A DNA stretch of 64,000 bases from Pontibacterium sinense (lineage in GTDB: Bacteria; Pseudomonadota; Gammaproteobacteria; Pseudomonadales; Balneatricaceae): NCBI RefSeq assembly GCF_015209595.1, contig NZ_JADEYS010000002.1, positions 62,001-126,000 of the forward strand, given 5' to 3'. The notes beneath the pieces were generated by a model. It had not been told where the DNA came from and did no database searches. It saw nothing but the letters and a program-made list of their open reading frames with translations. Positions 18,875 through 37,645 of the stretch are shown in pieces. The first letter of the stretch is position 1. Each line of letters begins with the position of its first letter. Both the position numbers and the translations under genes were made by a program.

Positions 18875-21800
18875 ATGGTGCACACTCGCTCATCTTCGAT
18901 TTTATCGGATGACTATCTACAGCTAACCCCTGTAGGAAAAGAACAAGATCAGACTGTATTTGAGCGCTCCTACCTACATCGGTTGCCCCCTTTTGAAGTT
19001 GCTGCCGCACTCAAAAATGAAAACCATATACTGAGTTACCTAAATGGCAGTGGCGCGCCGTATTTGCATGCATCTGAAGTGAATAGCCGTGATACAAAAA
19101 CGCTTCTGCGCACCGAGTGTCGCATACCGCTCAATGAGCTTTCACCGTTGCAGCTGTCACTTCGTCAGCGGTTAAAAATTGCGGTCAGCATGGCGAGAGC
19201 GTTGTGTGAAATCCACGAAAGAGATGTTCTGCACCTGGCCCTGCGTCCCGCAACATTTTTGTTTAGTGCTGATTTTGAACGCGCAGTGTTGTTAGATTTT
19301 TGTTCGGCCCGGCATGTGCCGAAAAATACTGCGGATTTGACCGGTTTTCGGCCAGTTATGGCTAAGCCTCATTTTTTAGCCCCGGAACAGGGTTATCAGT
19401 TTTCTCATACGCTAGACCGGCGTACGGATCTATATGCTTTCGGGTGTGTGCTGTATTGGTTGTTCTGCGGTGAGGCCCCGTTTTATGGGTTGAACGATGA
19501 TAATGCGATCGGATATGCGCAGATCGCCCAGCCGTTGATCATTGATATCAAAACGGGCGTATCGGAAGAACCTGATGCACGTATAGAGAGGATGAGCACA
19601 GCACTGAGTGCCGTTTTAAGTGCATTGTTAGAAAAGGAGCCATCCAACCGTTACCAGAGCTGCCCGGGGATGTTGGCTGATTTGCAAGCCGTACTCGCGT
19701 ACGTGCCAGAGCAAGGGGCTTTTAGTATTCGAGGTCAGGATTGTTCCGACTGTTTGTATATCCCGCAGCGCTTATATGGGCGTAATGTAGAAACACAAGC
19801 GTTAATGCAGGCGTTTCAGCGGGTAGCGAAGGGGTCTTCGGAAGCGTTTCTGATTGCGGGATACTCTGGCGTCGGAAAATCAGCGGTGGTAAATGAAGTA
19901 CGATTGCCTGTCTTGCAGTCCAATGGCTTGTTTGTGACCGGTAAGTTTGATCAGTATCGGGGCGGTACACCCTACAGTGCAATTGAACAGGCATTTAGTC
20001 AGTTTATTCGTACTTTGTTGGCATTACCTGATATTGAAGTGGAGACGTGGCGTGATCGATTAGAGATTGCGTTGAAGCCTAATGCACAAGTGCTGATCGA
20101 TATTCTACCGGACTTGGGGTGTTTATTGGGGCCTCAGCCAGAACCGGTCCCTCTCGGGGCTGAGGAGCAACAGAATCGCTTTAACCGAGTATTTTTGCAA
20201 TTTGTGCGGGTAATTTGTACAGCTCACAAACCACTGGTCGTATTTATTGATGATTTGCAGTGGGCCGATCTGGCAAGCATCAATCTGTTACGCATGCTGA
20301 TGATGGACACGGAAAATCGTTATTGTCTTTTGTTGGGGGCGTATCGGAACAATGAAGTCGATGACCGACACCCGTTTAGCCGCATACTGCAAGATCTCAT
20401 GGCAGAGCAAAGTCGGCTCAGCCAGATTGATTTAAAGCCTTTGCCGCTGAGGGCTTTGCATGAGGTTATGCGAGATACTCTTGGGCTGCCTTTGGCGCAG
20501 ATTCAGTCCCTCGGCGATCTGGTGTATCAGAAAACTGCAGGTAATCCGTTTTTCTTCCGCCAGTTTCTGCATGAGCTGTATCAGCAGGAGTTATTGGTCT
20601 TCGATTACAGTCAGAATCGCTGGCGTTGGTCCGAGTCAGATATTGAAAGGCAAGCCAGCACGGACAACGTGATTGATCTGATGATCGCAAAAATTGGGCG
20701 TTTACCGCAGAAAACCCAGCGCGCACTCATGCAGGCATCATGTATCGGAGCGCGTTTCCCGACTGACCTGGTGACTGAGGTCGATACGGCGAATACCACG
20801 TTGGATGAGATCCTGAAGCCTGCATTGGATATGGGGCTCATACAGCATGTGCATAACATGCAGGGCAGGCCTACTAAAGGCGAGCTCAGTTTCCTGCATG
20901 ATCGGGTTCAGCAGGCTGCGTATTCCATGTTGGATGAACAGGATCGTATGCAGTTGCATTACCGCATCGGGTGCCTGTTGTTGGAACGGTTTGCGGAGAT
21001 TGATGAAGATACTGCAGATCACCGCTGTTTCGATCTGGTTTCCCATTTCAATTGCGCCTTAGCGTTACTGAATGAACAGCAACGTGAACAGGTGATGGCG
21101 CTCAATCTTCAAGCTGCAAAGAAAGCGAAGTCTACCTCGGCTTACAAAATTGCGAATGAATATCTGGAGTATTTCTTTGAACTAGCACAATCGTCCAGTT
21201 TAGTGGCTCAGAGCGTCTTGTTTGATGCTGAACTGGAGAGACTGGAGTGTCTCTATCTTGCCGGTGAATATGAGTGTGCAGAACGGCTGCGTCCCTCGCT
21301 GGAAGGGCGCGGAGAGAACGTAGATCAAACAGCGCGTGTGCATGTTGTTTTGATCACTCAGTACACCCGAGTCGGCCAGTTGGACAAAGCCATTACCCAA
21401 GCTCAGTATGCGCTGAGGGATCTGAATTATCCGATGCCCGTTGAACCCACGATGGATGATGTCTGCGCGGCCATCGAATCTGTTCAGCAGTTGTTGTCAG
21501 AAACTTCATTTCATCAGCTGAGTCAAAAAACACCGATTTCCAACAAGAAGGTTCTCCTTCAGCTCGATATTCTGATGGCTATGCAGCCATGCTGTTATAA
21601 CTCTGGATCGTTATTGTTTCCGCTGACCATTCTTGGCTTGCTGCGTTTGACTTTGACTGAGGGCAACAGCCAGCACTCGTCTTACGTATATATGATGTAC
21701 GGTCTCATGTGCACCAAGGTACTCAAAGATTACGACACGGCATTTGAAGCGGCAAAATATTCCCGCATCGTGGGGGAGTCTTTTCCTGCGAGCCCGCTAA

Positions 21801-24385: not shown

Positions 24386-24952
24386 ATGAGAACACTCACA
24401 ACCGGTGATATTGCAAAATTCTGTGATGTTAACCAACGCACGGTTATTCGGTGGCTGGATAAGGGCGTCTTAAAAGGCTTTAAGCTACCAGGGCGTGGCA
24501 ATAATCGCGTGAAACTGGATGACTTCGTCAGCTTTTTAAAGCAGAACGGAATGCCAATTCCCGAGCAGCTTGCGGAAGACGCTCAACCGAAGGTGCTTGT
24601 CGTAGATGACGAACTTGCAATTGCTAATGCCATCCGCCGTACGCTGAAGCCTTTGGATGTGAGTATAGAGATTGCGAACGGCGGCTTTGAAGCGGGCAGT
24701 CAGCTGATGATGCTAAAGCCCGACCTGATGACCCTTGACCTGAGTATGCCGGGCATGAACGGATTTGATGTAATCAAGTTTGTTCGCAGCACTGAAGAGA
24801 TCGCAAATACGCAAATTCTTGTCATTTCTGCACTGAATGAAATAGAGCTTGGTAAAGCGATTGAGCTGGGTGCGAACGGCGCACTCTCAAAGCCTTTCGA
24901 TAATGATATTTTGCGTCAGGCAGTGTCTGATTTACTGTCGATCAAAGCCTAA
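24386..24952 (+). CDS. Response regulator with N-terminal MerR/excisionase-like HTH
   Basis: A 188-residue protein with the domain order reversed from most regulators. Residues 5-60 are an excisionase/MerR-like winged HTH (DVNQRTVIRWLDKGVLKGFK), and residues 69-188 are a receiver domain with acidic DDE, phospho-acceptor Asp118 in TLDLSMPG and the conserved Lys in ALSKPFD. It should be a phosphorylation-controlled DNA-binding protein. It is the first gene of a run with a periplasmic binding protein, a histidine kinase and a second regulator, so that kinase is the probable phosphodonor (inference). Confidence 0.88.
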   Translation: MRTLTTGDIAKFCDVNQRTVIRWLDKGVLKGFKLPGRGNNRVKLDDFVSFLKQNGMPIPEQLAEDAQPKVLVVDDELAIANAIRRTLKPLDVSIEIANGGFEAGSQLMMLKPDLMTLDLSMPGMNGFDVIKFVRSTEEIANTQILVISALNEIELGKAIELGANGALSKPFDNDILRQAVSDLLSIKA

Positions 24953-24975
24953 AGCAACCCCAAGGATAGGTGATA

Positions 24976-25821
24976 ATGGTTATGAAAACTGTCGTAAAGA
25001 AAATTCTAGGCGCAACGTTGGTTTCTGGCGCGGTTGCTATGGCCGCCGTGCCGGTACAGGCGGAAACCCTAACATTTGGGATTGTACCCCAGCAGTCTGC
25101 GAAAAAATTGGCCCGCCTGTGGACCCCGATCTTCAAGCACCTGAGTAAAAAAACAGGCACCACTATTCGGTTTGCGACTGCCCAGAATATTCCAACATTC
25201 GAAAAAAGGATGCGTGCGGGAGAATATGATGTGGCTTACATGAACCCATATCACTATACGGTGTTCAGCCAAAAACCAGGTTATGACGCGATTGCCCGCC
25301 AGAAAGACAAACGAATTAAGGGAATTGTCGTTGTTCGTAAAGACAGTCCTTTGAAAACCCTCGCTGAATTGGATCAGAAAAAACTGGCTTTCCCGTCTCC
25401 AGCCGCGTTTGCTGCGAGCGTGTTGCCGCGTGCCAAAATGGAACAGGAAGGGATGAACATTGAACCTAAATACGTTTCGTCCCATGACTCTGTCTATCTG
25501 AGTGTTTCAAAAGGTTTCTTTGTGGCTGGTGGCGGTGTGATGCGAACGTTTAATAACACAACGCCTGAAGTTCGCGAGCAGCTACGCGTGTTATGGAGTA
25601 CTCCAACGTATACACCACATGCTATTGCGGTGCATCCACGCGTGAAACCGGAAACTGTCGCTAAACTGAAGCAAGCCTTGCTGGAGATGAATACGGATCC
25701 AAGCGGCCAAAGCCTACTCAAAACGATCAACTTTAAGGGCTTAGAGTTGGCGGAAAACGGCGACTGGGATGATGTGCGAGGGCTGAACATACGCTTGTTG
25801 GATAACCTGCTTGCGCAATAA
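24976..25821 (+). CDS. PhnD-like periplasmic substrate-binding protein
   Basis: About 281 residues with a signal peptide (cleavage after AAVPVQA, about residue 29). The body is a phosphate/phosphite/phosphonate-type binding protein: LTFGIVPQQSAKKLARLW, AYMNPYHYTVFSQ and the VSSHDSVYLSV block. ATG 24976 is preferred, with AAGGA 8 nt before it; GTG 24970 and ATG 24982 are alternatives. No permease or ATPase gene is nearby. It is followed 26 nt later by a membrane histidine kinase, so it probably serves as a ligand sensor rather than a transporter part. The ligand may be an oxyanion or an organic compound. Confidence 0.85.
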   Translation: MVMKTVVKKILGATLVSGAVAMAAVPVQAETLTFGIVPQQSAKKLARLWTPIFKHLSKKTGTTIRFATAQNIPTFEKRMRAGEYDVAYMNPYHYTVFSQKPGYDAIARQKDKRIKGIVVVRKDSPLKTLAELDQKKLAFPSPAAFAASVLPRAKMEQEGMNIEPKYVSSHDSVYLSVSKGFFVAGGGVMRTFNNTTPEVREQLRVLWSTPTYTPHAIAVHPRVKPETVAKLKQALLEMNTDPSGQSLLKTINFKGLELAENGDWDDVRGLNIRLLDNLLAQ

Positions 25822-25847
25822 GGGATTAGCTTTTTCAGGAGTGTTTG

Positions 25848-27470
25848 GTGTCACTGCGTCTTAAAACCATTTTAGGTATCGCCACAATTGAGGCGATTCT
25901 GCTGATATTACTGGTGTCTATGACGCTGGATTACCTTCGTAGTACGAACTACGAAGGTATGGTTAAGCGTGCTTCCACCACAGCAACACTGTTCGCAACC
26001 ACCAGCAAAGATGCCATCCTTTCCTATGATCTGGCGTCACTCGACGCCTTTGTTACAGAAGTCATGCGTAATCCTGATTTGGTGTATGCACGTGTGCTTG
26101 GTCCCGAGGGTGAATTGTTTGCACAAGCGGGGGATGCCGAAGCGCTCGCGCGCCCATTTCAGGTGGATTTGGATGTCCCATCGGTAAGCGATGGGATATT
26201 TGATACGCGCGCAGAAGTATTTGAAGGCGGAGAGAATTACGGACAGGTGCAGATGGGGCTGGATATCAGCAGCATGAATGCGAAGATTGAAGAGGCACAG
26301 AAATGGAGTGCCGCGTTAGCCGCTATTGAGATGGGCTTAGTGGCGTTATTCTCATTCTTATTAGGCGCCTATCTGACGGGGCAATTAAAAGTACTGCGTG
26401 GCGCTGCACGTGATATATCCCAAGGCAATCTGGATGTTGAACTGCCGGTTCGAGGCAGTGATGAAATCGCTGATGTAACCCGTGCATTTAACAAAATGGC
26501 TTCTAATTTACGTGATGCTAGTGCCCGGAGAGATCAGTTTGAGCAACAGTTGCGCAGCCTGAATCAATCGTTGGAAAGCCGTGTAAAAGAACGCACAGAA
26601 GATTTGATCAATAAAAATCAGGATCTGGAAAGTGCGAACCGTGAGATTAAAGACACGCAGGCTAAGCTGCTTCAGTCTGAAAAGATGGCCTCTGTGGGCG
26701 TACTGGCTGCGGGTGTTGCGCATGAGATCAATAACCCGGTGGGTTATGTTCTGAGTAATATTAAAACCTTAGAAGGATATGTTGTTACCTATCAGGTCTT
26801 GCTAGAACAATATCAGCTATTGGCGGCGTTAACGGATGATCAAGCTCGCGCGAAGAAAATGTCCGAAATCGAGGCGTATGCGCAAGCTCAGGATCTGGAC
26901 TTTATTCGTGATGATTTGGAGGGGCTGCTTAAGGACTCTCTGGAAGGCGCTGAACGTGTCAGGGATATTGTTCGTGGCCTCAAAGACTTCTCGCACGTTG
27001 ACCAAACTGAGGATTTTCGCCCTCATGACATGAACGAATGTATCCGTACTACCCTGAAGATGGTTGATAACCAGCTTAAATATCACTGCAAAGTGATAAC
27101 CGATTTGGCGGACTTGCCTAAAAGTTACTGTTCTCCAGGGAAGATTAACCAAGTTATTTTGAATTTGCTGGTGAATGCGGGGCAGGCTATAGAGGACAAA
27201 GGCGCTATCAAGGTGACGTCTCACTTTGATGGTAGTCATATTGAGATTCGGGTAACGGATAACGGAAAGGGCATAGAAAAGGGTGCGATCGAAAAGTTAT
27301 TTGATCCTTTCTATACCACAAAACCTGTGGGCGAGGGCACAGGCCTTGGGCTGGCAATCTCATATGGCATAGTAAAAGAACACCAAGGCGACATTCTCGT
27401 ACAAAGTAAACCGGGTGCAGGGACCAGCTTTTCGCTGGTATTTCCATTACTGCAACATGCACCTGCTTAA
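25848..27470 (+). CDS. Membrane sensor histidine kinase
   Basis: About 540 residues: transmembrane helix near 6-26, a periplasmic sensor of about 125 residues, a second helix near 153-175, HAMP (GQLKVLRGAARDISQGNLDVE), a coiled coil, HisKA with phospho-acceptor His292 in AAGVAHEINNP and an HATPase domain with DNGKGI and GEGTGLGLAI motifs. GTG 25848 is preferred over TTG 25845 because CAGGAG is then 6 nt upstream. The gene sits between the binding-protein gene and a response regulator gene. The binding protein probably docks on the periplasmic domain. The kinase core is close in sequence to that of the H-NOX-linked kinase near 37000. Confidence 0.92.
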   Translation: MSLRLKTILGIATIEAILLILLVSMTLDYLRSTNYEGMVKRASTTATLFATTSKDAILSYDLASLDAFVTEVMRNPDLVYARVLGPEGELFAQAGDAEALARPFQVDLDVPSVSDGIFDTRAEVFEGGENYGQVQMGLDISSMNAKIEEAQKWSAALAAIEMGLVALFSFLLGAYLTGQLKVLRGAARDISQGNLDVELPVRGSDEIADVTRAFNKMASNLRDASARRDQFEQQLRSLNQSLESRVKERTEDLINKNQDLESANREIKDTQAKLLQSEKMASVGVLAAGVAHEINNPVGYVLSNIKTLEGYVVTYQVLLEQYQLLAALTDDQARAKKMSEIEAYAQAQDLDFIRDDLEGLLKDSLEGAERVRDIVRGLKDFSHVDQTEDFRPHDMNECIRTTLKMVDNQLKYHCKVITDLADLPKSYCSPGKINQVILNLLVNAGQAIEDKGAIKVTSHFDGSHIEIRVTDNGKGIEKGAIEKLFDPFYTTKPVGEGTGLGLAISYGIVKEHQGDILVQSKPGAGTSFSLVFPLLQHAPA

Positions 27471-27513
27471 GCGCATTAATGCCGACGCGGCGACAAAGAT
27501 GGAGTGTTAATTG

Positions 27514-28797
27514 ATGGATTATTCTGCGCATACGTTGATGCTAGTCGATGATGAAAGCCAGATTCTAAAAGCACTGACACGCGTTGTGCGTCCGCTGAAG
27601 TGTAAGGTTATTGCGCATGAATCAGCTGTGGCCGCGCTCGAAGAACTTCAAACAACATCTGTCGATCTGATCATCAGCGATATGCGTATGCCGGAGATGA
27701 GCGGAGAGGTTTTTCTTGAACAGGTTGCAGAACAGTGGCCAGACACTGAACGTATTGTTATGACAGGATACGCAGACCTACAGGCCTCCATCGATGCGAT
27801 CAATCGGGGGAGAATAAGCCGTTTTATGGCGAAGCCCTGGAGCGATGAAGAAGTTACGAAGGTTGTGCGCAAAGGATTCGAGTTAGCGAGTTTACGCCGC
27901 AGGAACGAAGAGCTACAGGCACTGACAGAGCAGAAAAACCAAGAGCTGGCGCAGCTGAATAAATCATTGGAAACAAAAGTGCTGGCACGTACGGAGCAAT
28001 TGCGTGCTGTTAATGATGGATTGAAGAACAGTTATCGCTCCGTTGTACGAATGTTTTCTACGCTGACTGCACGTCGTTTGGGGATGAAAGCCAGTGATAA
28101 CAACCAGAATCTGAATCGGCTTTTGCTGGGTGTGGCAAAAGCGTGCGGCGTTGAAGGTGCTGAGCTGAAGCAGCTTTATTACGCTTGGCAGCTGCGTAAT
28201 ATCGGTAAGCTTAGCCTAAGCGATGATTTGCTTTTTAAGCCTTATGTTGAGTTACCCGCGGATAAGCAGCGACAGTTTCAAAATCATCCTATTCTCGCTC
28301 AAGCCGCAACGTTACTGGTGAAACCGCTCTATCCGGCCGGAAATATTATTGTTCAGCACAAAGAATATCTGGACGGAACGGGTTACCCACGCGGACTTAA
28401 GAATCCAGAGATAACAAAGCCTGCGCGAATTTTATGTGTGGTAAATGATTACATTGAACTGATTGCCGGTACCTATCAAGAGCGCGCATATAGTACGAAT
28501 GAGGCGTTAAATTTCCTGAAAAATTACGCTACTGAGAAATATGATGATGACGTTGTGAACACGCTAGAGCGTGTTGTCCGGGTGTTGTCCAAAGAAGGTG
28601 ATATAAACCAGGATGACTGCATCGGAAGTAAAGACCTCCAGGTGGGAATGACTTTGAGTCGTGATCTGATTAGTCGTCAGGGTATCTTGCTGCTAAGTGC
28701 CGGTCAGGTCATTGACGATACCGTTGTCGAGCGTGTGCGGGAGATTGAATTTAATCTCGAAGAACAGTTTGAAATGTATGTTCACAACAAAAAATAG
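27514..28797 (+). CDS. Response regulator with degenerate HD-GYP output domain
   Basis: About 427 residues: receiver domain (Asp56 in IISDMRMPEMSG, Lys in MAKPW), a coiled coil at about 130-175 and an HD-GYP-like domain. The metal-binding HD pair is replaced by Arg228-Asn229 (LRNIGK), while the NHP histidine and the DGTGYPRGL motif near 288-295 survive. Loss of HD predicts no c-di-GMP phosphodiesterase activity; a regulatory role by protein contact is likely, as proposed for HnoD in Shewanella. The C-terminal 60 residues (LQVGMTLSRDLI..) match those of the regulator near 35000. It ends the binding protein-kinase operon. Confidence 0.88.
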   Translation: MDYSAHTLMLVDDESQILKALTRVVRPLKCKVIAHESAVAALEELQTTSVDLIISDMRMPEMSGEVFLEQVAEQWPDTERIVMTGYADLQASIDAINRGRISRFMAKPWSDEEVTKVVRKGFELASLRRRNEELQALTEQKNQELAQLNKSLETKVLARTEQLRAVNDGLKNSYRSVVRMFSTLTARRLGMKASDNNQNLNRLLLGVAKACGVEGAELKQLYYAWQLRNIGKLSLSDDLLFKPYVELPADKQRQFQNHPILAQAATLLVKPLYPAGNIIVQHKEYLDGTGYPRGLKNPEITKPARILCVVNDYIELIAGTYQERAYSTNEALNFLKNYATEKYDDDVVNTLERVVRVLSKEGDINQDDCIGSKDLQVGMTLSRDLISRQGILLLSAGQVIDDTVVERVREIEFNLEEQFEMYVHNKK

Positions 28798-29008
28798 TAT
28801 TTACTGATTTTGTGCCTTAATTGGTACTTGATGGGTATTTTATTGAATGAGAATGCATTCAATTTGTATGTTGAGTTAAATCAATAACTCTTCGGTTTCG
28901 TAAACATTTAAGTCTTCGTGTTGTAATACTTTCGGCTATAGTCTGTTTTTCAGAAAGCCTTGTTTAACCTGAGTAGGTTTCAAGGCGTAGTTTTCAGAAA
29001 TCGCGATT

Positions 29009-29626
29009 ATGGCCGCTCATACCTATAGTTATTTTGTTGTTGCTGCAGTTATTGCTGCCCGATTGGAAAAAGCAACACGTATTGCCCGACATCTATCCAT
29101 CACTGCTAGCAACGCTCGCGCGTTGGCCTTTCGTGCTGGGGAAGGTGCGTCGGGGTTTCGACCCCTTACGGATTATATCCATCGCTTGGCTGATCTAACT
29201 GTTAGCTCTTCCAGTCGTATCAACCATCTTGCTTCTGAACTAAGTCGTACTGCTGCAGAAAAAGAACGTGCCGAACGCGCTTTAAGACACTTTGTCGACG
29301 TTGGTGAACGAGCGAAAGACTCTCCGTTTATTGACAGCTTGCAACCTGTATTCGAGCGTACAAGTCAGCGCCAGTGTGTGTTGAGGGACGCATATAACAG
29401 CCAGATCAAGCTCCTGACATCTGAACTCGATACGTTGGAGGGCGAGTTACGGGCGGCGGGTGTGCTCGCCACCATGTCCAGAGTCGAGGCGTTGCAGGCA
29501 GATGGCGTATATCAGCAAGCATTGAATAATGTCGCTGACAATGTGGAAAGTGTGACCGCGTCTATTAAAAAGCATATCCAGTCGTCCCAGACACTCGTCC
29601 AGCAGTTAACGCAGGAATTATCATGA
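29009..29626 (+). CDS. Soluble MCP-tip-like coiled-coil protein, partner of the diiron protein
   Basis: A 205-residue, mostly helical protein without membrane segments. Residues 25-75 align in register with the hairpin tip of chemoreceptors: SNARALAFRAGEGASGF resembles the [17 protein letters not shown] tip, followed by an LADLTVSSSSRI-type helix. The central residues that contact CheA/CheW are partly changed. The rest is coiled coil. Its stop overlaps the next start (ATGA), so it is translationally coupled to the ODP-like diiron protein. In Treponema an ODP protein works with a soluble MCP as an oxygen/iron sensor, so the same kind of pair is proposed here (inference). Confidence 0.7.
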   Translation: MAAHTYSYFVVAAVIAARLEKATRIARHLSITASNARALAFRAGEGASGFRPLTDYIHRLADLTVSSSSRINHLASELSRTAAEKERAERALRHFVDVGERAKDSPFIDSLQPVFERTSQRQCVLRDAYNSQIKLLTSELDTLEGELRAAGVLATMSRVEALQADGVYQQALNNVADNVESVTASIKKHIQSSQTLVQQLTQELS

Positions 29627-30369
29627 AAACCCACACGCTTTACGACGGTGATTCGCATCGCTGGTTGATGTTTGGGCGCGATCCGAACAAGCCGGAAAAA
29701 ATCATTGATACCAACCAATATATGGTCATTACGAAAGATAATGCGCTGTTGATGGATCCCGGTGGGATCGAGCTTTTTTCGGCAATGTTAACCACTGTAA
29801 TAAAGCAGGTACCGGTCGATAAAATCACCCATATTTTTGCGTCTCATCAGGATCCAGATATTATCTCGTCATTGGGGCTGTGGGATCAGGCCCTGCAAGA
29901 TGCGACGTTACATTCTCCCTGGATCTGGGAAAGCTTTATTCGCCATTTTGGCATGCAGAACATCAACTTCAATGCGATCGCAGATGAAGGCGGAAGTCTT
30001 ACGTTGGACGACGTGAAATTGGTGTTTATTCCCGCTCACTATCTGCACTCATCAGGTAACTTCAATGTCTTTGATCCGCAAACAGGGATTCTAATGTCCG
30101 GCGATATTGGGGCAGCAATAGAGGCTGACGATGCCCCGATGTTTGTGGACGATTTCGAGTCTCATATTCCCAGAATGAAACTGTTCCACCAGCGTTGGAT
30201 GCCCTCCAATGAGGCCAAGAATGATTGGGTGGAGCGGGTGCGTGAGCTTGATGTGAAAATGCTTTGTCCGCAGCATGGTCGGATATTCAAAGGAGACGAT
30301 GTTGGTCGTTTTCTCGATTGGTTCGAAGGTCTGGAAGTCGGGCTAACCGGAGCGCGCCTTCGTCAGTAA
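29623..30369 (+). CDS. ODP-like MBL-fold diiron oxygen-sensor protein
   Basis: A 248-residue MBL-fold protein related to the diiron domain of flavodiiron proteins but without a flavodoxin domain. Metal-ligand candidates are His75, Asp77 and Asp79 in SHQDPD (the HxxxD form seen in oxygen-binding diiron proteins), His142 in HYLHSSGNF, Asp161 in SGDIGA and His218 in CPQHGRIF. The second His of the hydrolase motif HxHxDH is missing, which argues against a hydrolase. It should bind O2 or report iron/redox state in the cytosol. It is coupled to the MCP-like gene and convergent with an HDOD response regulator 39 bp away. Confidence 0.82.
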   Translation: MKTHTLYDGDSHRWLMFGRDPNKPEKIIDTNQYMVITKDNALLMDPGGIELFSAMLTTVIKQVPVDKITHIFASHQDPDIISSLGLWDQALQDATLHSPWIWESFIRHFGMQNINFNAIADEGGSLTLDDVKLVFIPAHYLHSSGNFNVFDPQTGILMSGDIGAAIEADDAPMFVDDFESHIPRMKLFHQRWMPSNEAKNDWVERVRELDVKMLCPQHGRIFKGDDVGRFLDWFEGLEVGLTGARLRQ

Positions 30370-30408
30370 GAGATGTTGAAGGAATGGCAAGGCTACCAGA
30401 AGTAGCCT

Positions 30409-31536
30409 TTATTGATTGGCCGTATCAGCCTGAAGATATTGTTCGACTTGTTCAAGCATTCCCGCGTCCCTTAACAGGGATTGATTTAGGCCTGAATCTG
30501 CTGCGAGTGGATCGCCCCCGATCTGATGCGCGTGATTGATCACGGTTGACGCGTGTAAGCGCAGCGTCATCGGTTTTATCTTGTGAGCGTTCTCCGGGTG
30601 CAGCTGATAGAGTACGGCGACAACGGTGTCCGAATCAAACCCCCATAGCTTAAGCAGATACGCGCTGATGACTGCATTGCGTTCGGAATTACCGGTCTCG
30701 CCTGAGATCAAACCACCAACGTTGTGTAGCATGCCTAGCACATAATGGTGATCAGCTTCGGCACGTGACAGTTTCATCTCCTGAGACAGTGTGCGCATGA
30801 TGCCGGCAACATGCTCAGCCTGTCGACAGAGCTGCTCGTGTTCGTAGGTATTATTGGAACTGTCTTGCCTGAAGATACCTGCACAGAGCACCAAATTTTT
30901 GATCATGCCTTGTCCTAAACGTACGACTGCATCGATAGCACTCGTAGCGGGTGTCGCAAAGCCAAAAAAGGCGGAGTTGGCGAGCTGCAGGATTTTGCTG
31001 AGGATTGCAGTGTCTTGCGTAATGATTTCGGCGATGCGTTCGCTATCAGGTTCGTCAGTCTGATTTAAATAAGATACCAATGCCTTATATACAGCAGGGA
31101 GGACAGGCAGGCTATCGATGCAGCCGATTTGTTCCCTTAGGTGCAGTGGAATGGGCAGTTCACGCAAACATTGTGCGGCATGAAGTGCATCAATCAGGCC
31201 TTCCATTTCAAACGGCTTTGGCAGCATCAGATGGGCTACACCGACCGCGGGTACCGCTTTGTCAGTATCGGTTTCGCCACTCAGTAAGATACGTACGGCG
31301 AGAGGGCATTGTTGCCTAACGTGACCCAGAAACTCGATACCATCCATTCGTGGCATACGTTTGTCACTCACGACGACCCAGGGTGAAAGCGTGTCGAGCT
31401 GTCTAAGTGCGTCTTCAGGGCATTGTTCAAAAACTAGCTCCCAATCTCTGAAGTGCCTGCGCAGATTGCGATGCAGAGAACGTAGAGCACTGCTTTCGTC
31501 GTCGAGAAAAAGAACTTTTGGTTTGTCTGGCGTCAC
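30409..31536 (-). CDS. Response regulator with HDOD output domain
   Basis: A 375-residue regulator: receiver domain at 1-125 (phospho-acceptor Asp in VVVSDKRMPRMDG, Lys in LPKPFE) and an HDOD domain from about 135 (SLPVLPAVYKALVSYL, ILSKILQLANSAFFG). HDOD domains lack a catalytic HD and act in signalling scaffolds. The start is GTG with GGAG 8 nt upstream. It begins 14 nt after the stop of the GGDEF-EAL regulator on the same strand, so the two are one operon. Confidence 0.88.
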   Translation of the reverse strand: MTPDKPKVLFLDDESSALRSLHRNLRRHFRDWELVFEQCPEDALRQLDTLSPWVVVSDKRMPRMDGIEFLGHVRQQCPLAVRILLSGETDTDKAVPAVGVAHLMLPKPFEMEGLIDALHAAQCLRELPIPLHLREQIGCIDSLPVLPAVYKALVSYLNQTDEPDSERIAEIITQDTAILSKILQLANSAFFGFATPATSAIDAVVRLGQGMIKNLVLCAGIFRQDSSNNTYEHEQLCRQAEHVAGIMRTLSQEMKLSRAEADHHYVLGMLHNVGGLISGETGNSERNAVISAYLLKLWGFDSDTVVAVLYQLHPENAHKIKPMTLRLHASTVINHAHQIGGDPLAADSGLNQSLLRDAGMLEQVEQYLQADTANQ

Positions 31537-31550
31537 AATACAGGCTCCGA

Positions 31551-33578
31551 TTACTCAACCGCAAAAGCAGGTAAGGCGAGATTATAGTTATTATCGATCA
31601 ACGGCTGGTTCTCCAGTAGCATCCTGAATTTGTCAGGTGATACAGGAGGGCTGATAAAGTACCCCTGCACTTCGTCGCAGTTCAGTGATTTAAGCAGTTC
31701 GAATTGTGTCTGAGTTTCGACACCTTCAGCCACGACCTGCATACCCAGATCATGGGACATGCGAATCACATTTCGTACTAGGTTGTATCTTTCCTTACTT
31801 TCTTCCAGGTCAACTACAAAGGAGCGATCGATTTTTAGCGTATCAACGGGTAGTCGGCTTAGATAGTTCAGCGAAGAATAACCGGTGCCGAAATCATCAA
31901 GCGCTAGCCGGATGCCTATGGACTTTAATTCGTGCAAAAGACTAAGACTGTGATCGATATCTTGCATCAGAAACGTTTCGGTAACTTCCAGCTCAAGCAA
32001 AGTTGGGTCAATTCCTGATGTCCGGATAATGCTGCGCACCGTGTCGAGTAGTCCGTCTTCCTGTAACTGGCGGCCGGATAAGTTAACAGCAAGGAGAAAG
32101 GAGGGGAGGCCATCTAATTGCCAGAACTTACTTTGTGTTGCAGCGGTTGCCAGCACCCATTCCCCAATCGCTTCAATCAGCCCATTGTCTTCTGCCATGG
32201 GAATGAAGGTTGCCGGGGATATCATCCCCAGGGTTTGGTGTTTCCAGCGCAATAAGCTTTCGGCTCCAAGAATCCGTCCGTTAGAGAATGACACTTTAGG
32301 TTGATACACCACGGAGAACTCATTTCGTTCCAGAGCGCGATAGAGGTCGCTCTGGATAGTCATCAATTCGTTATTCCGTTTATTCATCTCGGGCTTATAG
32401 CGCGGATAAATATAGCGGCCACGGCGTTTGGAATAGGACGCTGCTGCCTGAGCGTTCTGTAAGAGATCTTCAGGGCAGCGGCCGTCTACAGGGGCTATGG
32501 CATAGGCAACACTGAATGAGATATACACCTGTCGGTTAGCGAAGGTGATTGGGTTTTCGAATACCTTGAGTAGTTGATTAATCAGCGTGAGGGTTTCTTC
32601 ATCGCTACTTATGCCGGGAATTGCCAATACAAACTCATCGCCGGTGATACGGCCAACATAGGATCCTGCGGGTTTATGTTCAATCAGTTTGTGGGCAACT
32701 TCCGCCAGTAACTTATCGGCTTCTTGATAGCCTAAGCTGTCGTTAAATGTTTTGAAGCGATTTACGTCCATGTAGATAAGGCAGGCCGATGGCAGGGGCG
32801 TGCATTGATCCGTTTCTTTATCAGGTAATATCCATTCTGAAAGGCGTCGGATGATTTCACTGCGATGAAGCAGATGTTTTACGCCGAGACCTCCATTGTG
32901 CGATTTCTGTCGAACGCTGAGAATCCAGAGGCTGTTCGCCGTTGGGCGGCAGGCCAGCTCGAATATGTTGTCTTCGTACACCAGTTCGGTCTGGGTTTCG
33001 CTATTCAGGCAGAGTTGCTCTATCTGCCGTGGCGAGACGGCATGTAAAAATTCACTAATCGGCTGCCTCAAAACATCGTTTTCAGATGCGCAGCAGAGAT
33101 CACAGGCAGCAGGATTAAGGTGGGAAACGATCCCTTGTGCATTAATTTCAAATAGGGCTTCGTCACTTTCCCATACCATACGTGTCAGGCCGTGCTGCTT
33201 TTGCAACGTTGCCCAGTGCTCAAACGCCATCTCTATTTGTGCGATTAGCGCAGTGTCATCCCAGGGTTTGTGAAGAAACTTATAGGCAGTCCCGCTGTTC
33301 AGTATGCTTGTGACCGACTCCAAATCTGCATATCCACTCAGGACGAGGCCAACAATATGGGGATGTTCCTCTTTAACCCTAAGTAACAACTCCCCACCGG
33401 TCATATAGGGCATTCGAAAATCTGAAAGTACGACCTGAATGTCATTTTGTGACAAAACAGCAAGCGCTTCTTTACCCGAATTTGCGGTATGCACCGTAAA
33501 CCCTGCTCGCCTTAGAAGGCGGTTAAGTGCACGCAATATAGCGGCTTCATCATCAACTAATAAAATCGATTTCAGCAT
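31551..33578 (-). CDS. Response regulator with PAS-like, degenerate GGDEF and EAL domains
   Basis: A 675-residue protein: receiver 1-120 (Asp53 in VLSDFRMPY, Lys in LHKPW), a PAS-like segment 130-220, GGDEF-like 260-395 and EAL 405-650. The cyclase signature reads TGDEF (312-316) instead of GGDEF, so cyclase activity is doubtful. The EAL domain keeps Glu440 (ESLLRW), the DDFGTGYSSL loop and LEVTETFLM, so it should hydrolyse c-di-GMP. It is divergent from the H-NOX operon and could be the EAL effector of that network, like HnoB in Shewanella (inference). It is followed by the HDOD regulator in the same operon. Confidence 0.9.
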   Translation of the reverse strand: MLKSILLVDDEAAILRALNRLLRRAGFTVHTANSGKEALAVLSQNDIQVVLSDFRMPYMTGGELLLRVKEEHPHIVGLVLSGYADLESVTSILNSGTAYKFLHKPWDDTALIAQIEMAFEHWATLQKQHGLTRMVWESDEALFEINAQGIVSHLNPAACDLCCASENDVLRQPISEFLHAVSPRQIEQLCLNSETQTELVYEDNIFELACRPTANSLWILSVRQKSHNGGLGVKHLLHRSEIIRRLSEWILPDKETDQCTPLPSACLIYMDVNRFKTFNDSLGYQEADKLLAEVAHKLIEHKPAGSYVGRITGDEFVLAIPGISSDEETLTLINQLLKVFENPITFANRQVYISFSVAYAIAPVDGRCPEDLLQNAQAAASYSKRRGRYIYPRYKPEMNKRNNELMTIQSDLYRALERNEFSVVYQPKVSFSNGRILGAESLLRWKHQTLGMISPATFIPMAEDNGLIEAIGEWVLATAATQSKFWQLDGLPSFLLAVNLSGRQLQEDGLLDTVRSIIRTSGIDPTLLELEVTETFLMQDIDHSLSLLHELKSIGIRLALDDFGTGYSSLNYLSRLPVDTLKIDRSFVVDLEESKERYNLVRNVIRMSHDLGMQVVAEGVETQTQFELLKSLNCDEVQGYFISPPVSPDKFRMLLENQPLIDNNYNLALPAFAVE

Positions 33579-34177
33579 GGTTCAAACCTTGAACATGAAT
33601 GATGTTAAGTACGAAAGTCTGATCAGTGTTGGGGGGTGCATTTAGGCAATGTAGTGTAAGAGGGCAGTGAGTATCAGGAACGGGCGATCCATAAAGTAGC
33701 GGTGCTAGGGAAGCTACATCCATGTTTATCAACAACGACACGAAGATCTCCTCTATCTTCAGACACAGGCCCTTATGGCCGTGTCACTTCTGATGCAACA
33801 GCCCCGCTGTGTGGGCTGTTTATCATCCATGTTGAACGTTTCATTCAGCGTAGCACCATATTGTCTTTTTGTCCGCGACTTGGCGGGTATTGTGTTGATT
33901 TGTCTCATAAAAACCTCCTGTCCTTCGGCCTTAGAAAGGTTCCGGTTTGGTAATCGGTCTGATGTCGTTCTTGTTTTTTATGATTTTTAGTTCGCTTTAA
34001 AAACAATAAGATAAAGAATAATCCTGATAAATATTTGTTTGAAATCTTGAAGATGATTCAAGCATAGACTATTTTCATACCAATGCGACATTTGTGACAT
34101 TGTTGTCTTAGTGGACATTTTTGAATGCTCGCACTTTAAGATGTGTTGAGTGGGAAACTTTGGTGGAGATCTTTCGG
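33579..34177. other. Regulatory gap between divergent EAL and degenerate HD-GYP regulator genes
   Basis: About 600 bp. Short open frames around 33700-33990 have no ribosome sites or recognisable products. The segment 33990-34080 is AT-rich. GACAT recurs at 34087, 34096 and 34114, which is a 9-bp phase, just before the next gene. It probably carries divergent promoters; no sigma-specific boxes were certain. Confidence 0.5.
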
Positions 34178-35524
34178 ATGGAGCAACTAGCAGAGACGGC
34201 ACCCTCAGATAGTGCAGGCTTTGTGGCTAATCAGAAGATAAAGATTCTGTGTGTTGATGATGAAGCAAGTGTTCTCAGTTCCTTGAAACGCGTGTTGCGC
34301 GGAGCGTCATACCAGTTTTTCTCAGCGAGCTGTGCCAGGGACGGTCTTTTTATACTCAAAAACCAGCCGGTTGATATCGTTATATCTGATATGCGTATGC
34401 CGGAAGTGAACGGAGCTGAATTTCTTTCAGATGTGGCCAGCCAATACCCTAACTGTGTGCGGATATTGCTCACAGGTTATTCGGATATCGAATCCACTAT
34501 ACAGGCAGTCAATGAAGGTCAGATTCATCGTTACATGCGTAAGCCCTGGAACAACGAAGACCTGATTCTAACCGTTAGTCAAGCTGTTGAACGGGCGCGA
34601 TTGCAGTCGGAAAACACACGCTTGCTATCTCAGGTTGAGAAGCAAAATCAGTTGCTTATGAATATGAATGCCGGGTTGGAGAATAAGGTTCAGCAGCGAA
34701 CAAAGCAGATTCGGTTGGCAATGGGAAAATTGCATAAAGCGAACCTCCAGGCCAATGACAATCTAAAGTCTACGATCCGCGTGTTTTATAACCTGATCAG
34801 CCTTAACCCACATCTTGGTGGCCGTATTGCTGTAGAAGTTGGTGAACTTTGCAAATTGCTTGCGACGCGGATGAACTTAACCAAGCGGGAAATAAGAGCG
34901 ATCCACTTATCTGGCTTGTTGTACGAGTTGGGGCTTCTGGGTTCTGATGATGAATTGCTGAATAAACCGGTTTATGAACTATCTCCTGACGAGTTGAACC
35001 GATATCGCAAACATCCGGCTCAGGCTTATATAGCGCTGGCCCCAGCGACGGGTCTGCAAGATGTAGCGACGATTATCAAATATCAGTATGAAGCCTATGA
35101 CGGCACGGGGCTGCCGGACCGGTTGTCAGGTACGGATATTCCCGTGGGTGCGCGAATTTTGGCCATTGCGAGAGATTACATTCTCTCGGTGCATGGTCGG
35201 TTACGAAAGGGACGAAGCAGTGTTGATGGGGCCTTGCGTCGACTTGAAATGAACGCTGATAGGGAATATGACAGCTGTATAGTAATGAAACTTGGCGATG
35301 TACTTCCATGCCTGCAACAGGATGTGCTGGGGCAGGATGAATGGGTAGTATCGATAAAGCAGCTGCGTGTCGGGATGCAGTTGTCGAGAAACTTATTTAA
35401 CGACAACGACATACTCTTGCTGCCGGAAGGACATAGATTCACGAATGAGACGGTAAGACGTCTGCAGTCATTTGAACAAACTGATCAACAGTTGTTGGAG
35501 ATTTACGTTTTCAACAACGAGTGA
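34178..35524 (+). CDS. Response regulator with degenerate HD-GYP domain (HnoD-like)
   Basis: About 448 residues. Receiver domain 20-140 (Asp71 in IVISDMRMPE, Lys in MRKPW), a coiled coil at 140-185 and a degenerate HD-GYP domain. HD is replaced by Tyr249-Glu250 (LLYELGLLG), the HHE motif is YQYEAYDG and GYP reads GLP (309-313). Catalysis is therefore unlikely. ATG 34178 is chosen (GGAG 9 nt upstream) over a TTG at 34121. It is the first gene of the H-NOX operon and a paralogue of the regulator at 27514. In Shewanella the H-NOX kinase phosphorylates such a protein (HnoD), which modulates an EAL enzyme. Confidence 0.88.
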   Translation: MEQLAETAPSDSAGFVANQKIKILCVDDEASVLSSLKRVLRGASYQFFSASCARDGLFILKNQPVDIVISDMRMPEVNGAEFLSDVASQYPNCVRILLTGYSDIESTIQAVNEGQIHRYMRKPWNNEDLILTVSQAVERARLQSENTRLLSQVEKQNQLLMNMNAGLENKVQQRTKQIRLAMGKLHKANLQANDNLKSTIRVFYNLISLNPHLGGRIAVEVGELCKLLATRMNLTKREIRAIHLSGLLYELGLLGSDDELLNKPVYELSPDELNRYRKHPAQAYIALAPATGLQDVATIIKYQYEAYDGTGLPDRLSGTDIPVGARILAIARDYILSVHGRLRKGRSSVDGALRRLEMNADREYDSCIVMKLGDVLPCLQQDVLGQDEWVVSIKQLRVGMQLSRNLFNDNDILLLPEGHRFTNETVRRLQSFEQTDQQLLEIYVFNNE

Positions 35525-35534
35525 GGTATTCAAA

Positions 35535-36038
35535 ATGATAAAGACAGTGATGATTATTGATGATGAAGCTCAGGTGCTAAAGTCTCTGCAGAGAATGCTG
35601 GGGCGCAGTGGGTGGCAGGTCATAACATTCGTTAATCCTGCGGATGCGTTGGAGTTTGCTCGCCATCGTATTGTTCCTTTAGTCATTACTGATTTTCGCA
35701 TGCCTAAGATGACAGGGACTGAATTTCTTCAAACTTTGGAGGCAATTCAACCCGTATCCTATAAGATAATGCTGAGTGCTCATGCGTCCCGTCATGACAT
35801 TGTCCAGGCAGTTGCGTCGGTCGGGGTCCATTGTTTTATGGAAAAACCGTGGAAAAGCAGTCGATTGCTTGAGGAGCTAAATGCGGGGTTGGAGTATTTT
35901 CGACTGATGCTGAGAGCTGAGTACATGCATAATAAGGATATGATGTCGCCAGAACAGTTTGGGCTTTGGTACAACGCTTTGCTAAAGAAAATTGACCCGA
36001 GTGTCGCGCTTGGATCCGATAGGGCAGAGAGGACTTGA
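35535..36038 (+). CDS. Receiver-domain-only response regulator
   Basis: A 167-residue protein: receiver domain 1-120 with acidic DDE, phospho-acceptor Asp in LVITDFRMPKMTG and Lys in MEKPWK, then a short helical tail without a known output domain. ATG 35535 follows the previous stop by 10 nt with a GAGG ribosome site. It lies between the degenerate HD-GYP regulator and the H-NOX gene, so it is probably a target or phosphate sink of the H-NOX-linked kinase. Confidence 0.85.
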   Translation: MIKTVMIIDDEAQVLKSLQRMLGRSGWQVITFVNPADALEFARHRIVPLVITDFRMPKMTGTEFLQTLEAIQPVSYKIMLSAHASRHDIVQAVASVGVHCFMEKPWKSSRLLEELNAGLEYFRLMLRAEYMHNKDMMSPEQFGLWYNALLKKIDPSVALGSDRAERT

Positions 36039-36114
36039 GCTGTTGGGCTTAATCGATTTTACTGACTGGAACGTGATGTAGAGGCATTTTGTCTTTTCTG
36101 TAAGGAGGCGGGTG

Positions 36115-36660
36115 ATGAAAGGTGTTGTTTTCAATGTGCTCGAAGATATGGTTATCAACCAGTGTGGGATGCAAACCTGGAATGACGTATTGGATGAGCA
36201 AGTCTCTGCGACGGGTATTTATACTGCAGGAGAAAGCTATCCTGATGAGGAGTTGCTTGGTCTTGTTGAATCAGTGGCGGCTAAATTAGAGATGCCGATT
36301 GGAGAGGTCATTGGCGCCTTTGGCGTGTATATGTTCCACCAGTTGGCTGAAAGGTATCCAGTATTCCTTGAGCAGTCGGATAATTTACGAGACTTTCTGA
36401 TCAGTGTGGAGTCGGTCATTCACATCGAGGTGTGTAAGCTTTACGAGAGCCCTAACCTGCCATCGTTCTCTTATGATGAAAGTCGTGACGATCAACTTAT
36501 TATGCAGTACACCTCACCGCGAAAACTCTGTGTATTGGCTGAGGGACTTATAATGGGGGCATCGGAGTACTATAAAACGCCGGTTGAGATTGACCATCCG
36601 GTGTGTATGCATAAAGGTTCAGACCACTGTGACTTAGTGATTAGGTTTAATCATGGCTAG
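36115..36660 (+). CDS. H-NOX heme nitric-oxide sensor
   Basis: A 181-residue heme NO/oxygen-binding protein. The proximal heme ligand is His103 (SVIHIEVCKLY) and the heme-propionate motif YxSxR is Tyr132-Ser134-Arg136. The distal region near 140 is non-polar (CVLAEGL), favouring NO over O2 binding. ATG 36115 has a perfect AAGGAGG 6 nt upstream, and MKGVVFNVLE is the family's usual beginning. It overlaps the histidine kinase gene by 8 nt. In homologous systems NO-bound H-NOX inhibits the kinase and so alters c-di-GMP-linked biofilm behaviour. Confidence 0.95.
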   Translation: MKGVVFNVLEDMVINQCGMQTWNDVLDEQVSATGIYTAGESYPDEELLGLVESVAAKLEMPIGEVIGAFGVYMFHQLAERYPVFLEQSDNLRDFLISVESVIHIEVCKLYESPNLPSFSYDESRDDQLIMQYTSPRKLCVLAEGLIMGASEYYKTPVEIDHPVCMHKGSDHCDLVIRFNHG

Positions 36661-37645
36661 CAGCGATAATCCATATGAGGTTGCGTATACGAGAGAGAGA
36701 AGTGCGCGGCTGAAGGCTGAACAGTTGCTCGAGGATAAAGCAAGAGAGCTTTATTTCAAGAATCAAAAGCTTGAGGAAAGTTACAAACAGCTAAAGCAGC
36801 AACAAGCGCTGACGATGCAAAATGAAAAGCTGGCGACATTGGGTACTCTGTCAGCAGGCGTCGCTCATGAAATTAATAACCCACTAGCTTTTGTTCTGAG
36901 TAACCTCGAGAGCTTACCAGTCTACAAACAGGCTTTTATGCAGTTGCTGAAGTTCAATCAGGGCTGTATCAATGATTCCAGTATGCCCTCCCAGTTCAGG
37001 GAGGAACTGAAGCAGCTTATAGAAAGAGAAGATCTTGAATTTCTGTCTGAGGATATGTCAGGCCTGATTGACGATACGGTTGAAGGTATTCAGCGTGTTA
37101 AGGAGATTGTGCAGAACTTGCGTAGCTTCTCGCGAACTCAAGGTAGCGATTACGTTGAGGCAGATTTGCTGGAAGGCATTAGTAGTACAATTAAGCTGCT
37201 TAATGCGGAGCTAAAAAACTCAGTAACATTAAAACTTGATTTAGATCCGTTGCCTCGCATCGTCTGTAATCCTAATCAGCTAAATCAGGTATTTCTCAAT
37301 CTGATTATGAATGCGAAACATGCGTTGGCTGACAGCAGTAAACCTCTTATCAAGGTAACGACAAGCGTATGTGATGAGATCATCCATATCCGGATCGCAG
37401 ATAATGGATGCGGTATGCCACCAGAAGTCCTGAAAGAAATATTTGTTCCGTTTTATACGACGAAGCCGATAGGACAGGGAACCGGTATGGGGTTGGCTAT
37501 TGCGTATGGGATTGTTAGAGATCATGGAGGAAAGATCAACGTACGCAGTCAAGTAGGGCGTGGGACTGTGTTTGATGTAGAGCTGCCGGTGTCGTCTGAT
37601 ATGCGAAAAACTGATACTGATCGGATTGGCACTGCCGACGTATAA
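36653..37645 (+). CDS. Cytosolic histidine kinase linked to H-NOX (HnoK-like)
   Basis: A 330-residue soluble kinase without sensor domain: coiled coil 1-60, HisKA with His72 in SAGVAHEINNP, and HATPase with ADNGCGMPPEVL and GQGTGMGLAIAYG. It overlaps the H-NOX gene by 8 nt, so it is co-translated with its sensor. Its kinase core resembles that of the membrane kinase at 25848. Predicted targets are the receiver proteins at 34178 and 35535 and perhaps the EAL regulator transcribed divergently. It ends 4 bp from the convergent MarR gene. Confidence 0.92.
   Translation: MASSDNPYEVAYTRERSARLKAEQLLEDKARELYFKNQKLEESYKQLKQQQALTMQNEKLATLGTLSAGVAHEINNPLAFVLSNLESLPVYKQAFMQLLKFNQGCINDSSMPSQFREELKQLIEREDLEFLSEDMSGLIDDTVEGIQRVKEIVQNLRSFSRTQGSDYVEADLLEGISSTIKLLNAELKNSVTLKLDLDPLPRIVCNPNQLNQVFLNLIMNAKHALADSSKPLIKVTTSVCDEIIHIRIADNGCGMPPEVLKEIFVPFYTTKPIGQGTGMGLAIAYGIVRDHGGKINVRSQVGRGTVFDVELPVSSDMRKTDTDRIGTADV

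Follow-up and report, generated by a model that had tools for sequence, protein, structure and literature searches.

We consider it probable that two adjacent genes of Pontibacterium sinense encode a chemosensory input module, in which a diiron protein of the ODP family is combined with a fused, diverged double receptor tip that would dock at CheA/CheW and shift CheA activity. The genes lie within a stretch of 64,000 nucleotides, referred to as the window, from a host assembly of 4.6 Mb in 52 contigs. The upstream gene (29009..29626, forward strand) encodes P0001, a soluble MCP-tip-like protein of 205 aa for which profiles, Pfam and PDB searches and AF2 models indicate two tandem hairpins. The downstream gene (29623..30369, forward strand) encodes P0002, an ODP-family MBL-fold protein of 248 aa and a putative non-haem diiron O2/Fe sensor, as judged from its Pfam and PDB matches. 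The ends of the two ORFs have the four nucleotides ATGA in common (29623-29626). The locus had come to attention through a prediction made from the DNA alone; the ORF positions, lengths and overlap given there were borne out, and the motif that it singled out, NARALAFRAGEGASGF, is indeed residues 35-50 of P0001. The original observation is confirmed, and its interpretation as a whole is partly supported. Three near relatives of the genome carry a name: one Oceanospirillaceae MAG, one uncultured Marinobacterium and one Neptuniibacter MAG. A reading of P0001 as a spurious ORF or pseudogene was ruled out by its conservation across the order and the class.

The two genes are strictly associated. 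Searches driven by the helical protein P0001 found an ODP gene directly downstream at 3/3 loci in one search, at 11/11 strong matches among 144 relatives, and at 23/23 matches of at least 40 bits in 369 genomes of the class, the last figure taking in the window pair and the second pair of genome G747. The window, G003 and G004 each occur twice in the three lists, which together hold 34 distinct family members, each of them directly upstream of an ODP gene (34/34), which is the result of the search for the gene pair across genomes that had been proposed as a check. The second and weaker tip match of G747 (40 bits) also has an ODP gene next downstream, so the pairing rule is unbroken. G562 and G747 each have a second ODP that is more divergent, and these too are paired. 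Eight of the 17 weaker class-wide matches were fetched (L160-L167), and all eight were ordinary MCPs. One further pair, in Pseudoalteromonas xiamenensis, came from a search of plasmids. Public annotation names the P. xiamenensis partner a "chemotaxis protein" and that of Shewanella aestuarii a "hypothetical protein", and both proteins match the family profile. The S. aestuarii pair is carried on the 231-kb plasmid pPN3F2_1 (L193), in the vicinity of an ISNCY transposase and a gene for a nitrate/nitrite transporter, and this location indicates that mobile DNA can carry the pair. At another locus (L076 5923-8292, genome G097), a fusion of ammonium transporter, histidine kinase and receiver is encoded directly downstream of the pair.

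The association was also followed from the ODP side, where one search gave an ODP match in 102 genomes and loci from 30 of these were examined. ODPs scoring at least 290 bits against the profile of the paired proteins had a tip-like gene upstream, recognized weakly (17 bits) in G241 (L113), while those scoring 245 bits or less had no upstream tip, with the exception of G427, in which a weak tip-like ORF (13 bits) accompanies a broken ODP frame. In a tree of 39 paired ODPs (including that of G241) and 32 unpaired ODPs (including that of G427), the paired proteins were monophyletic with a support of 1.0. Pairwise distances among tip proteins and among their ODPs were correlated over 38 members (Pearson 0.91, Spearman 0.77), with 0/2000 permutations as high, a correlated divergence that would also follow from shared descent. 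Of the 38 pairs measured, one has its genes 88 nt apart and the other 37 have spacings between -4 and +32 nt, and 13 of the 38 have a 4-nt overlap; L002, L110, L147, L195 and L224 are left out of this count.

P0002 matches the Pfam ODP family (PF19583) with an E value of 1.3e-73 and 247.4 bits, where the curated cut-off is 27.2, and the solved ODPs 6qrq and 6qnm with E values of 6.2e-61 and 5.5e-59; the flavodiiron NO reductase 1ycf is matched at 5.5e-6. The putative metal-ligand motif H75-Q-D77-P-D79 (29845..29859, forward strand) aligns with the H-x-E-x-D of 1ycf, and the ODP alignment gives H142 (30046..30048), D161 (30103..30105) and H218 (30274..30276, all on the forward strand) as further putative iron ligands. 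These six residues are kept in 39/39 paired and 32/32 unpaired ODPs, that is, in all 71 compared. P0002 has the set H-x-D-x-D, H, D, H of the diiron ODPs and does not have the second His of the hydrolases. The Pfam match, the solved relatives and the full ligand set all support the earlier identification of an ODP-type diiron protein. By sequence, P0002 is a member of the ODP family, and we infer that it would bind metal and O2. The paired ODPs carry in addition a clade signature, R19-D20 ... D29-T30 (29677..29712, forward strand), found by aligning paired with unpaired proteins. Each of these four residues is present in 39/39 paired ODPs, while in the unpaired ones D29 is found in 1/32 and T30 in 2/32, and at site 19 Arg is absent from the five residues listed, which cover 29 of the 32 rows.

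Upstream of the pair, at 28871..28884, the sequence TTGAGTTAAATCAA reads as a candidate FNR/ANR/DNR-like box and thus as a candidate oxygen- or NO-responsive promoter element. It agrees at 9 of 10 positions with what we take to be the FNR/ANR/DNR consensus and precedes the start codon of P0001 by 138 nt. Ten of 38 tip genes have an upstream box with at least 9/10 consensus positions, compared with 0.75 expected from Markov resampling; for the tips the region scanned extended 60 nt into the gene, and all ten matches fell between -148 and -71. At the same threshold boxes were found for 8 of 30 unpaired ODPs and for 13 of 269 neighbourhood ORFs, the latter being ORFs of at least 200 aa with the pairs' own genes included. 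As a mark of the pair the box was rejected as unspecific, since unpaired ODPs have it equally often (8/30 versus 10/38). Such boxes fit an oxygen- or NO-linked role of ODPs in general.

P0001 is related to the MCPs at a distance that single-sequence searches barely span. Its match to the Pfam family MCPsignal (PF00015) has an E value of 4.4e-4 and 20.6 bits, below the cut-off of 34.6, and its matches to MCPs in the PDB have E values of 0.0025-0.0055. Seven of 12 relatives of P0001 match the Pfam MCP family at an E value of 0.01 or lower (the best at 1.2e-5), and a family profile built from 12 relatives matches 3g6b, the soluble receptor of Thermotoga, with an E value of 5e-9. Two different stretches of the profile, 19-138 (E value 1.2e-6) and 89-186 (E value 0.004), map onto one and the same tip in 3g6b. 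We also built separate profiles of the two halves from 38 relatives and used them to score 20 of the 29 MCPs found in the genome of P. sinense. The N-half profile gave 29-46 bits on all 20, with reversed MCPs at 5 or lower, and the C-half profile gave 20-35 bits on all 20, with reversed MCPs at 7 or lower. A chance coiled-coil likeness was ruled out by these reversed-sequence controls and by those for four divergent relatives given below.

Comparison of the profiles by hhalign placed both halves in one register with the MCPs and with each other, at probabilities of 86% for the N half with the MCPs, 23% for the C half with the MCPs and 12% for the two halves, which are low for the second half. 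Half models built without L114 recovered both halves in the expected order in four divergent relatives at 12-37 bits, with reversed sequences at 3.7 or lower; among these four, an MCP profile gave a clear match in L114 only. In the rows inspected for single members of the family, the MCP profile located tip 1 in register but not tip 2. By its sequence P0001 is a distant relative of the MCPs, MCP-derived though outside the ordinary MCPs by its Pfam score, and on balance we read it as a tandem duplication of an MCP tip in which the C half is a second, diverged tip. The kinship of the helical protein with MCP tips, which the original prediction had proposed, is supported by the 3g6b match and by the scores on all 20 MCPs tested from its own genome, and the protein is, as claimed there, a soluble MCP homologue with neither membrane nor ligand domains. 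The further description of the MCP part as shorter missed what the profiles indicate, namely that P0001 carries two tips.

The AF2 model of P0001 (pLDDT 77.2, pTM 0.65) has helices at residues 8-47, 50-101, 108-161 and 166-204, with predicted turns at 48-49, 102-107 and 162-165. A Neptuniibacter relative that is 52% identical was modelled (86.5, 0.76) with helices at 2-43, 46-97, 104-157 and 162-200, the third of them interrupted at 145; the alignments used for the two models held 4 sequences each. The last two helices of P0001, H108-161 and H166-204, form the second hairpin, residues 108-204 (29330..29620, forward strand), which agrees with the C-half profile. Foldseek searches with both models gave no match at an E value of 0.001 or lower. 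Among the best 50 matches listed, the highest TM scores belonged to 6z0c, a single-chain four-helix bundle (0.51-0.71 over all chains), the best 6z0c scores among the matches listed being 0.66/0.71 for the P0001 model and 0.64/0.64 for that of the relative; the MCP 2ch7 was rank 23 among the matches listed in the first search. The models suggest that P0001 would fold as a four-helix pseudo-dimer of two hairpins, and an up-down-up-down bundle of this kind would bring the two tips together at the same end, which is the arrangement in an MCP dimer.

The residues expected at an MCP tip are distributed over the two halves. Tip 1, residues 35-50, NARALAFRAGEGASGF (29111..29158, forward strand), keeps the Asn, Arg, Gly and Gly-Phe of MCPs, with N35 in 38/38 relatives, R42 in 32/38, G44 in 38/38, G49 in 34/38 and F50 in 34/38, while at residue 39, the place of the MCP tip Glu, Glu is found in 0/38. 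Tip 2, residues 148-165, RAAGVLATMSRVEALQAD (29450..29503, forward strand), aligns to the 3g6b tip and keeps the MCP Glu as E160 (34/38), together with S157 (29/38) and R158 (30/38); the Asn is at its matching place in 9/38, and Asn and Arg are often missing. In 20/20 MCPs from the same genome, the tip places are occupied by N, E, R, G, G and F. The residues of the N381/E385/R388 type, which we take to be the E. coli Tsr numbers of the tip residues, are thus not combined in one hairpin of P0001: N and R are in the first half and E is in the second. According to work on E. coli Tsr, the tip residues act as trimer contacts. The CheA/CheW-contacting residues had been described as altered, which is real, and the alignment of 38 relatives indicates that they are divided between the halves and not simply lost. 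Because tip 1 is always without the Glu and tip 2 is often without the Asn and Arg, contacts with CheA/CheW may be lost; the conservation of N35, R42, G44, G49-F50 and E160 suggests that tip contacts are kept. P0001 is probably a natural single-chain MCP-tip "pseudo-dimer" with its contact residues split between the halves.

Genomic context links some of the pairs to chemotaxis genes. The second pair of G747 is inside a chemosensory operon (L195 8236-18999) with the order cheA-mcp-mcp-cheW-cheB-tip-ODP-cheR and also a STAS gene, in which cheA encodes Hpt, H-kinase_dim, HATPase and CheW domains, the MCPs have the domain orders NIT-HAMP-MCP and Tll0287-HAMP-MCP, and 4-nt overlaps join tip to ODP and ODP to cheR. 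In G769 a cluster of the order cheA-cheW-mcp-cheW-STAS-cheR-cheD-cheB-mcp, with two cheW genes, is followed on the same strand by a 319-aa gene, the tip gene and the ODP gene; about 1.8 kb with the 319-aa ATPase-like gene lies between cluster and pair, and the cluster is also followed by a gene for a hybrid PAS histidine kinase (L226 3453-10501 and L175 88-7889). Among the 22 neighbourhoods of pairs outside the genus that were scanned for che genes, made up of 20 plus L195 and L224, these two alone contain them. Pairs lying in and beside che clusters point to CheA, and not to the HDOD/EAL genes next to the window pair, as the target; this location of pairs and the strict conservation of the pair had been missed in the original prediction. 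MCP genes (E value of 1e-10 or lower) occur in 5 of 20 pair neighbourhoods, which says little because the genomes carry up to 39 MCPs.

CheW and MCP domains were present in all 17 genomes tested (16 with the pair, and G427). A CheA dimerisation domain was found in 10 of 11 tip-bearing relatives and in 108 of 133 others, so that co-occurrence with CheA shows no enrichment and was set aside as uninformative. In G098 the pair is present and the CheA dimerisation domain was searched for and not found, an absence that may reflect deletion or assembly error. A run of flagellar genes in this genome is truncated beside parA and cheW genes: at L187 11306-12596 a truncated gene, presumably fliG-like, abuts a presumably parA-like gene, and deletion or misassembly could have removed cheA there.

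The window pair itself is set within a cluster of H-NOX, two-component and c-di-GMP genes identified by Pfam (24386..37645), which we regard as context outside the module. The cluster encodes an HTH-RR, a PhnD-like protein, a HAMP-HK, an RR-HD-GYP, an RR-HDOD, an RR-PAS-GGDEF-EAL, a second RR-HD-GYP, an RR, an H-NOX and an HK. The PhnD-like periplasmic binding protein (24970-25821) adjoins the HAMP histidine kinase and is perhaps its ligand-binding partner. At the edge of the cluster (18875-24163) is a gene whose 1762-aa product combines Ser/Thr kinase, AAA, GAF, PAS and GGDEF domains. The association of the pair with this cluster is not conserved. In G004 pair and cluster are laid out as in the window, while in the congener G003 the cluster is present with about 80 nt only at the site of the pair (L190), and the pair is located elsewhere (L067), abutting an EAL protein. 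The cluster of G002 contains a 121-residue ODP remnant without its N-terminal part and without a tip gene (L086 8192-8557), which we interpret as decay of the pair in place. Outside the genus, a scan of 20 pair neighbourhoods with the proteins of the window found a GGDEF gene adjacent to the pair in one and about 5 kb away in one more.

Taken in order, the steps of the mechanism that we favour would be as follows. The ODP, a cytoplasmic non-haem diiron protein, would sense O2 and/or Fe(II) by changing its state and would act on its dedicated double-tip partner. That partner would be a soluble receptor cut down to the signalling tip, with the two hairpins of an MCP dimer fused in one chain and diverged, and would dock at the CheA/CheW array as a ready-made dimer tip, shifting CheA output according to the iron or oxygen state of the ODP. 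A physical contact between P0001 and P0002 would be expected from this scheme, and the steps from metal chemistry to CheA control are modelled on Treponema denticola as described in passages of PMC7666581. Such a pair may let swimming bacteria steer by their internal oxygen or iron. A more specific version is possible and, in our estimate, doubtful: in an asymmetric one-chain dimer, one hairpin would permanently present the face for the trimer axis or the partner, the other would permanently present the face for CheA/CheW, and the ODP would clamp this plug of fixed polarity into ordinary arrays. If so, nature would have separated genetically two roles that are normally united in each MCP subunit.

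Three other readings were weighed against this one. The tip protein might act as a cap or decoy that binds CheW or receptor tips and damps or dissolves arrays in one ODP state, and does not act on CheA as a receptor would. The division of the tip residues between the halves fits such a role, as do the modelled helices of P0001, whose 39-54 residues would seem to offer no space for methylation or for control by a HAMP domain, and the report, in passages of PMC7666581, that T. denticola CheA becomes more ordered on loss of the ODP. We judge it unlikely in view of the strong conservation of the tip 1 residues and E160, from which it appears that the tip contacts are kept. The suggestion that came with the original prediction, that the pair feeds oxygen or iron state into the neighbouring HDOD/EAL/H-NOX regulators and thereby into c-di-GMP signalling, could draw on the position of the window pair between RR-HD-GYP and RR-HDOD/EAL genes of the H-NOX cluster, on the same layout in G004, and on the EAL protein that the G003 pair abuts. 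Coupling to these neighbours was not supported, and we hold it to be quite unlikely: the cluster occurs without the pair (L190) or with the ODP remnant alone (L086), GGDEF genes are near 2/20 pairs outside the genus, and the conserved partner is an MCP tip and no output enzyme. That an ODP can serve c-di-GMP enzymes elsewhere is indicated by ODP-GGDEF fusions identified by Pfam in two genomes, at L083 8504-10351 (G053, 615 aa) and L084 8654-10396 (G041, 580 aa), which from their domains are apparent oxygen- or iron-sensing diguanylate cyclases in the same bacterial family.

The remaining possibility is that the ODP is an enzyme, either an O2, peroxide or NO reductase or an iron store, and that the helical protein is a mere scaffold with no function in taxis. 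The relatedness of P0002 to flavodiiron NO/O2 reductases, through the match to 1ycf, speaks for catalysis, and so does the enrichment of FNR-like boxes upstream of ODP genes, paired or not. We consider it very unlikely, as no flavodoxin or rubredoxin partner was found among ten pair neighbours or the window cluster genes scanned, and as the partner derives from MCP tips and two genomes carry the pair within or next to a che cluster. The ten neighbours scanned had no function in common.

Our preferred reading, an ODP that signals through a double receptor tip, can be compared with several known systems. The original description of an ODP with a soluble MCP is reportedly that of a PNAS study of 2019. 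In T. denticola the ODP TDE2498 is coupled to TDE2496, an MCP homologue that has no transmembrane or sensing modules and can modulate CheA (described in passages of PMC7666581), so the analogy with Treponema that accompanied the original prediction holds. As in Treponema, the ODP gene of the pair is coupled to a soluble MCP homologue that has no sensor; the partner here is a 205-aa double tip that falls below the MCP cut-off. The paired gammaproteobacterial ODPs form a clade of their own among those compared, marked by R19-D20/D29-T30, in a tree that holds no T. denticola ODP. The best solved match of the family profile is the soluble receptor of Thermotoga maritima, 3g6b/3g67, of 213 residues, which we take to be Tm14; it has one tip, to which both halves of P0001 align.

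Natural soluble single-chain MCP signalling domains have been noted in Rhodospirillum centenum and a handful of others, with their function given as unknown, and an engineered single-chain Tsr~Tsr supports chemotaxis (both from passages of PMC4692393). P0001 is like these in having two MCP hairpins, as predicted, in one chain with no membrane part; by description, it is set apart from the natural ones by its short length, its diverged halves and the binding of its gene to an ODP gene. The DosM protein of F9 arrays has two tandem signalling domains, mostly without a sensory domain, and goes with CheW3 and two-layered cytoplasmic arrays (passages of PMC9321776). P0001 shares with DosM the two tandem signalling domains; in P0001 the predicted turn at 102-107 would bring the tips to the same end of the protein, and the partner is an ODP. 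The neighbours in the window (H-NOX, HK, RR-EAL, RR-HD-GYP) resemble the H-NOX/HnoK/c-di-GMP network, of which the pair is no fixed part. H-NOX/HnoK/c-di-GMP two-component networks are a known signalling arrangement.

The subunits of a receptor dimer sit differently in arrays, one toward the trimer axis and one toward the CheA/CheW side, and single-chain receptors have been made in the laboratory as a tool for telling the two apart (PMC4692393). The roles of the subunits are hard to separate because those of an MCP dimer are identical; if our reading is true, a natural, short and asymmetric single-chain tip with its own oxygen or iron sensor would be a ready handle on them. ODP-based sensing would then also reach a wide range of Gammaproteobacteria, in which the receptor partner can escape standard domain cut-offs. 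No report of the exact module of an ODP and a double tip was found in the open-access literature searched. ODPs with a soluble MCP and single-chain MCP domains are both already known, and what looks new is the short, asymmetric, ODP-bound single-chain form.
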